Both the position numbers and the translations under genes were made by a program. The notes below the pieces were generated by a model. It had not been told where the DNA came from and searched no databases. It worked only from the letters and a program-made list of their open reading frames with translations. Below are positions 2,897-27,761 of a stretch of DNA of 34,983 nt, one piece after another. The stretch spans positions 1-34,983 of the forward strand of contig JAGLJF010000012.1 of NCBI GenBank assembly GCA_023142595.1, given 5' to 3'. This DNA is from Minisyncoccota bacterium (GTDB lineage Bacteria; Patescibacteriota; Minisyncoccia; JAHIHE01; JAGLIN01). Numbering within the stretch: the first letter of the stretch is position 1; every line of letters begins with the position of its first letter.

Positions 2897-3655
2897 TTAT
2901 TTATAAACATCACTCAAATCAAAACTTTCACAAAATTCAGAATTGTTTTTTGTCTTTTCTATGTCAGAAAATGAATACTGTTTCATTTTCATCGTCGTGA
3001 GTTCTTCATTAATATTTTCCCAAGGAAAGATTTTATACTCTTTATACTTTAATCCTAATTTTTTACATTCTTCTTCACTATACTCTTCACAATCATTTTG
3101 TAATCTTCCATAAAAACTAATTTTCGCATCTTTTATGACATTTTGATAATGATAATCCATATTTGAAGCGGCATAAATGATTTCGGAATTTGGAAATTGT
3201 TTTTTCAACCCTTTGGCAGCGTATGAGGCAGAAGTTCCAAAACAATGATTTCCTTCAACCAATAAAAAAACCGTCTTTTCCTCTCTTTTAAAAATCCCTT
3301 CGTTAATTTTTTGAATCTGTCGTAATTCAGCCAAATTATTCTCGAAAAAATATTTATATTGCACAGGTAAAATTTTCAATATATTTAGCCTATATGCTAA
3401 ATATGTTCCAGAAATATTTCCGCCTCTCAAAAGCGGAACAACTGCATCAATTTTAATCGATAGAATTCCCCGATGCTTGCATTGGTTGGAGTTGTCAAAA
3501 GGGATTTCTTCCTCTTGATACCTCGGCAGCTTGCTGCGAGGTTCTTCATTATTATTTTCTTTTACATATTTTTCAACTTTACTACCCAAGACATTCAATT
3601 CTTTCTCAAAATATTCATCCCAAGACATTTTTTTGATTTGTGATTTTTTTACCAT
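2897..3655 (-). CDS. Phosphoribosyltransferase-fold-like protein carrying a 33-codon repeat-element insertion
   Basis: DAVVPLLRGGNISGTYLAYRLNI resembles the PRTase N-terminal strand/PPi loop; KTVFLLVEGNHCFGTSASYAAKGLKKQFPNSEIIYAA occupies the PRPP-loop position but is degenerate. Residues EEPRSKLPRYQEEEIPFDNSNQCKHRGILSIK are encoded by the 99-bp repeat. Confidence 0.5.
   Translation of the reverse strand: MVKKSQIKKMSWDEYFEKELNVLGSKVEKYVKENNNEEPRSKLPRYQEEEIPFDNSNQCKHRGILSIKIDAVVPLLRGGNISGTYLAYRLNILKILPVQYKYFFENNLAELRQIQKINEGIFKREEKTVFLLVEGNHCFGTSASYAAKGLKKQFPNSEIIYAASNMDYHYQNVIKDAKISFYGRLQNDCEEYSEEECKKLGLKYKEYKIFPWENINEELTTMKMKQYSFSDIEKTKNNSEFCESFDLSDVYK
3452..3550 (-). repeat. 99-bp repeat element, copy 1 (in frame inside the PRTase-like CDS)
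   Basis: Exact reverse complement of 27663..27761 over 99 nt by direct comparison; contains three consecutive short hairpins. Confidence 0.97.
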
Positions 3656-3734
3656 GTTTATACTATAATTAGTTAATCTCTAGGAGGTCCTGATAAACTA
3701 ATAAATTTCAATTTTAGAATTTGTTTTTTGAGCT

Positions 3735-3811
3735 AAATCCTAGATTCCCGCTGGAGTTTATGCTGAATTTATTTCAGTGCGAGAATGACAAAAACTTCGT
3801 TTTTCAGAGGG
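3735..3811 (+). repeat. Interspersed repeat family A, copy 1
   Basis: AAATCCTAGATTCCCG-N-GTGCGAGAATGACAAAAACTTCGTTTTTCAGAGGG; shared with 20502..20578 (minus strand) and a shorter form at 12247..12298; similarity to the 12247 copy extends upstream to about 3688. Confidence 0.9.
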
Positions 3812-4180
3812 CCTTTTACATGCTAAATTTACATTTTAATAATAACAAATATTTTGCAATTTACAAGTAAAAAAGATAAAATAAGATAAGTCAGAACTAA
3901 TAACTAACATTAAAAATATTTTTATGAAAACAAAATGCAAACTTCGTTTAACTCTGATTATTTTTTTATTATTAACAATCGCTATAATAAAAATTATTTT
4001 ATCGGATTTATAATAATTATTTAGAGCTCGTTCTTCGGAGTGTGAGTCAATTGCGATAAGTTATTTATTGTAGGTTGAAATTCGAACCCCATCTATAAAC
4101 GGATCTGTAAAATTATGTTATGAATTTTAAATTAACAAAAAACTGAATACTTGAGAACAAAAACAATAAATTTTTATCAA

Positions 4181-12138: not shown

Positions 12139-12246
12139 ATAAAAAAAAGAGATAGCTTGATTGTCCTTAAGATTGATTTTTATAAAATATCAATAAAAAC
12201 TCTGATAAATTAATAAATTTTAATCATAGAATTTATTTTTTACCTT

Positions 12247-12298
12247 AAATCCTAGATTCCCTTCTGCAAGGGAATGACAAAAGCTTCGTTTTTCAGAA
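12247..12298 (+). repeat. Interspersed repeat family A, copy 2 (short form)
   Basis: AAATCCTAGATTCCCTTCTGCAAGGGAATGACAAAAGCTTCGTTTTTCAGA; contains ATTCCC-N8-GGGAAT; similarity to copy 1 extends upstream to about 12200. Confidence 0.88.
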
Positions 12299-20466: not shown

Positions 20467-20501
20467 TAAATATGGGTTGAGTGAAATTTTTCATTTTAAG
20501 A

Positions 20502-20578
20502 CCCTCTGAAAAACGAAGTTTTTGTCATTCTCGCACTTCGACAACCTCAGTATAAAATCCATCGGGAATCTAGGATTT
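20502..20578 (-). repeat. Interspersed repeat family A, copy 3
   Basis: Minus strand AAATCCTAGATTCCCGATGG...GAAGTGCGAGAATGACAAAAACTTCGTTTTTCAGAGGG. Confidence 0.9.
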
Positions 20579-20638
20579 AATTCAAAAGATAAAATTTTTC
20601 GCTTCAAATATTTTTACAAATTCCTCTCGTTTTATTGT

Positions 20639-27355: not shown

Positions 27356-27384
27356 TTGCGTAGTATGTTGATTTATAGTAGTAT
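27356..27384 (+). promoter_or_regulatory. Sigma-70-like promoter
   Basis: TTGCGT-N17-TAGTAT. Confidence 0.45.
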
Positions 27385-27403
27385 TTATATAGGAGAAGTG
27401 TAT

Positions 27404-27667
27404 ATGTCCGAAACAAACAATAATATTATTGTACCAGGAAAAGTGTTCCGACAAGGAATATTAGATGTAATTGAAAAGAAAACTGGAAGAAAAATTCCTT
27501 TTAAAGCATTCGACAATTTCGATGAGAGTGATTTTGGAAAATTAATTGGAATCAACACAGTAAGAGTAACAATTATACCAAGACTTCTTCATAGAGTTTT
27601 TTGCCTAAAAGGAACATATAATAAAGCTGTAGCAAGTACATGGCTGATAAAAAAAGGATTTAAATGA
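27404..27667 (+). CDS. Small orphan protein (87 aa) whose stop codon lies in the 99-bp repeat
   Basis: SD GGAGAAG upstream of ATG 27404 (MSETNNNIIVPGKVFRQGILDVIEKKTGRKIPF...); upstream TTG in the ORF track overlaps the promoter, so ATG 27404 is preferred. Confidence 0.6.
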   Translation: MSETNNNIIVPGKVFRQGILDVIEKKTGRKIPFKAFDNFDESDFGKLIGINTVRVTIIPRLLHRVFCLKGTYNKAVASTWLIKKGFK

Positions 27668-27761
27668 AGAACCTCGCAGCAAGCTGCCGAGGTATCAAGA
27701 GGAAGAAATCCCTTTTGACAACTCCAACCAATGCAAGCATCGGGGAATTCTATCGATTAAA
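27663..27761 (+). repeat. 99-bp repeat element, copy 2
   Basis: Exact reverse complement of 3452..3550. Confidence 0.97.

Follow-up and report, generated by a model that had tools for sequence, protein, structure and literature searches.

A non-autonomous IS200/IS605-type element, very probably mobilised in trans by TnpA, inserted in frame in a PRTase-like gene of a Paceibacteria genome

A short palindromic sequence occurs twice, in opposite orientations, in the window, the whole stretch of 34,983 nucleotides that was analysed, and one of its copies lies inside a PRTase-like gene whose reading frame it leaves open. This arrangement raises the question of what kind of element it is, which enzyme moves it and whether its presence within a protein gene reflects anything other than chance. 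The window corresponds to contig C4 of a draft Paceibacteria (Patescibacteria) MAG of 1.04 Mb in 74 contigs (genome G000). As detailed below, the element is very probably a non-autonomous PATE of the IS200/IS605 type, mobilised in trans by a TnpA transposase, whose in-frame insertion in the PRTase-like gene was presumably fortuitous.

An earlier note, made from the letters of the window, had described positions 3452-3550 as the exact reverse complement of 27663-27761, which sequence comparison bore out, with 95% identity over a 112-nt extension. The higher G+C content attributed to the repeat was also measured (47% against 26-32% on the flanks). The same note had the gene reading through 99 bp, or 33 codons; the read-through stood, but the size did not, because TTTAAT at 3452-3457 is the target common to the copies, host DNA directly 5' of the left end, leaving 93 bp or 31 codons of inserted DNA. 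Comparison of the copies, together with an empty site in the case of the first, places the element proper at 3458-3550 on the plus strand (copy 1, in the tnpA-sense orientation from left to right end) and at 27663-27755 on the minus strand (copy 2), the latter with its TTTAAT target at 27756-27761, read as ATTAAA on the plus strand.

Genome-wide, seven copies with equal boundaries were counted between unrelated flanks, six of them identical over a 95-nt query and the seventh with a single difference, and the element is thus dispersed rather than confined to a duplicated gene. All seven end in CTTCATT, and the copies have TTTAAT or a near variant just before their left end. Both the empty site at copy 1 and the comparison of all copies indicate insertion 3' of this fixed word with no duplication of the target. 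The 93-bp element opens with CGATAG and closes with TTCATT, which do not form an inverted repeat. These comparisons thus show neither terminal inverted repeats (TIRs) nor a duplicated target, the two features that define the classical DDE-type TIR MITE, and the element is too short to encode a transposase.

The empty site is given by genome G001, of the same genus, whose orthologue of the PRTase-like gene (78-79% identical as protein) matches both flanks of the insert and has a gap of exactly 93 bp (31 codons) in its place. The insert is also absent from the orthologues in G004, G008 and G244, the last belonging to another family, so that retention of these residues as part of the protein family across distant taxa was not found in any of the four. 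Copy 2 lies at the very end of the ORF at 27356-27667 and supplies its stop codon, altering one residue (GFK* with the element against GFN* in the rejoined flanks). For the copy on contig C23, the corresponding intergenic region is free of the element in G002 and relatives, which supports an empty locus, the spacer there being too diverged to place the exact boundary. The copy at C57 2021-2118 (L014) is also read through. Its host frame is membrane-protein-like, but it contains another stop upstream, and no orthologue of it was found; on these two counts the copy was dropped as a second clean in-frame case, and the frame is possibly a pseudogene.

The repeat had been said to fold as consecutive hairpins, and the hairpins themselves are real, but the overall folding of the 93-mer beats shuffled sequences only modestly (z of about -1.4), fold energies alone not being significant. 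On the plus strand of the window, the left subterminal hairpin, CC-CCGATGC-TT-GCATTGG-(TT)-GG, occupies 3468-3489 in the DNA fold, directly preceded by the tetranucleotide AATT (3464-3467), the putative left guide. A central hairpin, CAAAAGGGATTTCTTCCTCTTG, is found at 3496-3517 in the consensus fold and is kept in family members, followed by the putative right guide GATA (3517-3520), pointed to by guide/cleavage covariation in IS relatives, and by the right subterminal hairpin CCTCGgCAGC-TT-GCTGCGAGG (3521-3541), which is common to the IS right end. The element closes with the right-end cleavage site TTCATT (3545-3550), present in 7/7 copies of the host genome and in 7/7 IS right ends. Structure is better supported by the fact that the two end hairpins are conserved, both between genomes and in the related IS. 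These two hairpins are near-terminal and equally oriented, and in DNA folds both form on the strand equivalent to the tnpA sense, whereas the left-end hairpin is lost on the opposite strand, as would be expected for single-strand transposition.

The possibility of a Y1 transposase associated with such a repeat had been raised in advance, and a Y1 gene was indeed found in G001 with the right hairpin of the element alongside, hairpin and flank recurring there as ATACC...GCAGC-TT-GCTGCG.GGT..TTCATT. This locus is a complete IS200-group element with an intact tnpA of 152 codons, its left end reading AATAGAATAAATTCCCCGTCAGC-TT-GCTGCGGGGT and its right end TGATACCTTGTCAGC-TT-GCTGCGGGGTAATTCATT. The encoded TnpA matches NF033573 with an E value of 7e-37 (126.5 bits) and Pfam Y1_Tnp with 5e-35, whereas on the REP (RAYT) model it reaches 21.5 bits, below the cut-off of 80. 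The IS and the element match in the right guide GATA followed by CC, in the right terminus TTCATT and in the left guide AATT followed by CCCC. The end signals are all that they have in common, the cores being unrelated and the left hairpin of the G001 IS differing in sequence.

No tnpA of the IS200 group was found among the assembled contigs of the host genome, and a search of it with the G001 left-end pattern gave no match, because the host IS carries CCTCG, not CCCCG, at that place. When all contig ends were read, seven of them stopped in a left hairpin after TTTAAT followed by AGAATAAATTCCTCGT, and seven stopped in a right hairpin, before GGGGTAATTCATT, the right ends reading GCTTGCTGCGGGGTAATTCATT. 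Since seven left and seven right ends lie at contig ends, we infer that the IS is present in this genome and that about seven identical, collapsed copies were probably lost in assembly. A gene for a D-2-hydroxyacid dehydrogenase (PF00389, PF02826) is divided between the ends of C53 (L291, a left end) and C49 (L139, a right end). When their flanks are joined again, the reading frame is continuous and no base is duplicated; an IS200 insertion thus appears to split this gene.

Homologous IS found through TnpA belong to Saprospiraceae, other Bacteroidota, Chlorobiaceae, Treponema and Candidatus Paceibacterota RS_2_29. These relatives share the target TTTAAT, the left guide and hairpin start AATT-CCCC, a right guide GATA or AATA followed by CC and the end TTCATT or TTTATT. 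The left hairpin of the element is almost identical to that of the Saprospiraceae IS (L147), CCCCGATGCTTGCATCGG, and the layout with AATT directly before CC is also found in the IS of G000 and G001 and in most Bacteroidota relatives. The right guide and the cleavage site covary, GATA occurring with TCAT and AATA with TTAT in 14 of the 15 readable right ends (Fisher p = 0.0014, an optimistic value since the 15 relatives share descent). Across Paceibacteria and Bacteroidota/Chlorobi/Treponema, TnpA identity among loci L147-L166 is 53-68%. Sequence relationships of this kind suggest that the IS200 group may have moved between phyla.

Of the 289 genomes of the class searched with a covariance model made from eight copies, 8 carry the element, all of them among the 15 genomes of the host's family. 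Copies in the same-family genomes are diverged (72-91%) and, with flank, measure 88 to 99 nt; some, in G014, G008 and G001, no longer follow the guide/cleavage rule, probably because of decay. In contig C55 of G008 (L112; L084 near 3646), a single-hairpin element, AATGAACTACCTCGCAGCAAGCTGACGGGGAATATCTTGATTAA, has both termini around one hairpin. The host is placed in Paceibacteria by its named neighbours, which are Candidatus Paceibacterota RS_2_29 (the same as G001:C99) and Patescibacteria KA31 (G011:C31). Viral and genome collections scanned for exact patterns gave no matches to the element, because its own genome was possibly left out and the relatives are diverged, and an Rfam search returned a tRNA as its sole match.

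From the shared guides, cleavage sites and target, a mechanism can be proposed in which the Y1/HUH transposase of an IS200-group element with matching ends and target would mobilise the 93-bp element in trans. With both subterminal hairpins of one strand recognised by TnpA, the left guide AATT would presumably pair with TTAA in TTTAAT, the target or left site, and the right guide GATA with TCAT in TTCATT, the right site. Excision would then release the element as one strand, to be integrated into single-stranded DNA 3' of TTTAAT, leaving the target unduplicated. One insertion struck the PRTase-like gene, whose ORF survived with a 31-residue loop insert because the element measures 93 bp and is open in two of the six combinations of phase and orientation. 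With these properties, an ORF would be left intact now and then by luck.

The interrupted gene (2897-3655, minus strand) encodes 252 aa, with the insert at residues 36-66, against about 218-221 aa in its orthologues. No Pfam or NCBIfam family was found for the protein. A Foldseek search placed purine PRTases at the top, although the model behind it is of low confidence (mean pLDDT 52). In that model, the insert follows an N-terminal helix (12-33) and precedes the first strand (71-75), in agreement with the site previously assigned to it, and is predicted to be unstructured. Outside the insert, a dN/dS of about 0.13 between G000 and G001 points to purifying selection on the gene. The insert does not differ from the other copies, so the insertion is recent. 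Nothing suggests selection on the element for coding, because stops interrupt its frame in the copies of G012, G014, G008, G004 and G001, that is, in most relatives' copies. A peptide that is unconserved in relatives and a recent insertion give no evidence of exaptation. Therefore, from the earlier claim that the element can become protein-coding, the frame-preserving read-through holds, but nothing was found for retention or translation. Translation of the insert may nevertheless take place. An unlikely extension is that the 31-residue insert is translated, that the PRTase-like enzyme is still active and that the PATE lineage acts as a frame-preserving inserter adding disordered loops; if true, a 93-bp inserter with two open frames would add disordered protein loops in a streamlined Patescibacteria genome.

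Analogies with REP/RAYT systems and with Rickettsia palindromic elements had been drawn in the earlier note, and neither held. A REP/BIME-type repeat mobilised by a domesticated RAYT (TnpA-REP) would share with IS200 systems the combination of hairpin elements and Y1 enzymes, and the host genome encodes six weaker PF01797 matches of RAYT-like length. None of these loci carries the hairpin of the element, however, and two of them, on C43, are flanked by unrelated GGTTCCA-type repeats; they were thus rejected as the source of the element's ends. It is instead with classical IS200 that the left and right ends, the target word and the cleavage word are identical, and the TnpA in question scores far better as IS200 than as REP, as given above. 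Seven single copies, not the hundreds of REP/RAYT with their mainly intergenic singles, doublets or BIMEs, also argue against this reading, which is considered highly improbable.

Even less probable is a coding palindrome of the Rickettsia type, kept in protein genes as a tolerated or useful peptide. The element does have a length divisible by 3 and two open frames, and it sits in frame in a gene under purifying selection, between a helix and a strand of the model. Against this, the stops and the variable length in relatives' copies described above do not agree with a maintained peptide, a clear internal gene insertion is seen in one of the seven copies only, and the insert is too recent to show retention. 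The least probable reading is that an assembly artefact, or recombination between the two copies on the same contig, makes the gene merely appear interrupted, as might be suspected in a draft MAG of 74 contigs with a repeat identical in seven places. Ordinary sequencing reads are longer than 99 bp, so that a repeat of this length falls below them, and the join is not one between unrelated loci, because both flanks of the insert match one orthologous gene contiguously in G001, G004, G008 and G244. A mobile palindromic element, as first proposed for the window, is backed by the seven unrelated sites, the insert-free orthologues and the related element with a Y1 transposase, and its link is to a classical IS200 TnpA.

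Other repeats were noticed in the same genome. A second dispersed family, with 49 matches in G000, lies at 3690-3840, 12202-12297 and 20484-20593 of the window; part of it is palindromic (GATTCCC...GGGAATC-like and GTCATTC), and it is possibly REP-type or another MITE family. At the start of C16, an IS200 left end, TTTAAT followed by AGAATAAATTCC, lies inside a member of this family, which offers the TTTAAT target. Additionally, two near-identical RAYT-like Y1 genes are found about 1.8 kb apart on C43 (1283-1672 and 3072-3348; L071), flanked by repeats of the type GGTTCCA..AGTCCCGA..GGGCTGTGGAACC, a pair that is likely a separate, recently active element.

For the 93-bp IS200/IS605-type element, these observations name the likely mobiliser, the target word, the cleavage site and the guides of a small element in an uncultured, streamlined phylum. 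They also provide a clean natural case of in-frame insertion, with orthologues that show the empty site, and contig breaks of such MAGs become readable as lost IS copies. No paper on IS200-derived MITEs in Patescibacteria was found in the open-access literature searched, the coverage of which was incomplete.

The element is a well-resolved new family of a kind already known. The PATEs of Haloquadratum walsbyi lack TIRs and target duplication and have ends related to the IS605 type (PMC3119063). All testable features of the 93-bp element match the definition given there: near-terminal palindromes, no TIRs, no target duplication, no transposase gene and homogeneous copies, with the single-hairpin form in G008 resembling the 'terminal-only' PATEs. 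It is, consequently, a homogeneous PATE, or a MITE in the wide sense. It differs from the Haloquadratum PATEs in being bacterial (Paceibacteria), 93 bp long and low in copy number, and in being tied to a tnpA-only IS200-group IS with target TTTAAT. In IS608, the target TTAC, which is retained at the left flank, and the right cleavage site TCAA pair with the guides AAAG and GAAT, each immediately 5' of a hairpin (PMC5934647). As in IS608 and ISDra2 of the IS200/IS605 family, the element has subterminal hairpins on one strand, a tetranucleotide guide 5' of each and insertion 3' of a fixed target word with no duplication; it differs in having TTTAAT/TTCATT for TTAC/TCAA and no gene of its own. 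The covariation of guide and cleavage site extends the DNA-guided rule of the IS608 type to the TTTAAT/TTCATT group. Compared with its IS200-group relatives, which encode TnpA, the element consists of the ends around an unrelated core of 30-40 bp. Regarding insertions within genes, Rickettsia palindromic elements (Ogata et al. 2000, 2002, reviewed in PMC10969869) measure about 150 bp, lie in genes in many cases and encode a conserved peptide. The likeness is short mobile palindromic DNA in frame in a protein gene, whereas here the peptide is unconserved, a clear insertion in a gene occurs once and a mobiliser can be put forward by name. QMITE1/2 of Coxiella burnetii overlap gene 3' ends or lie in frame inside ORFs (PMC5896051), as copy 2 and copy 1 do, respectively, although they belong to another element family and are far more numerous. 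In-frame insertion of small elements was thus already known from the papers on both of these groups.
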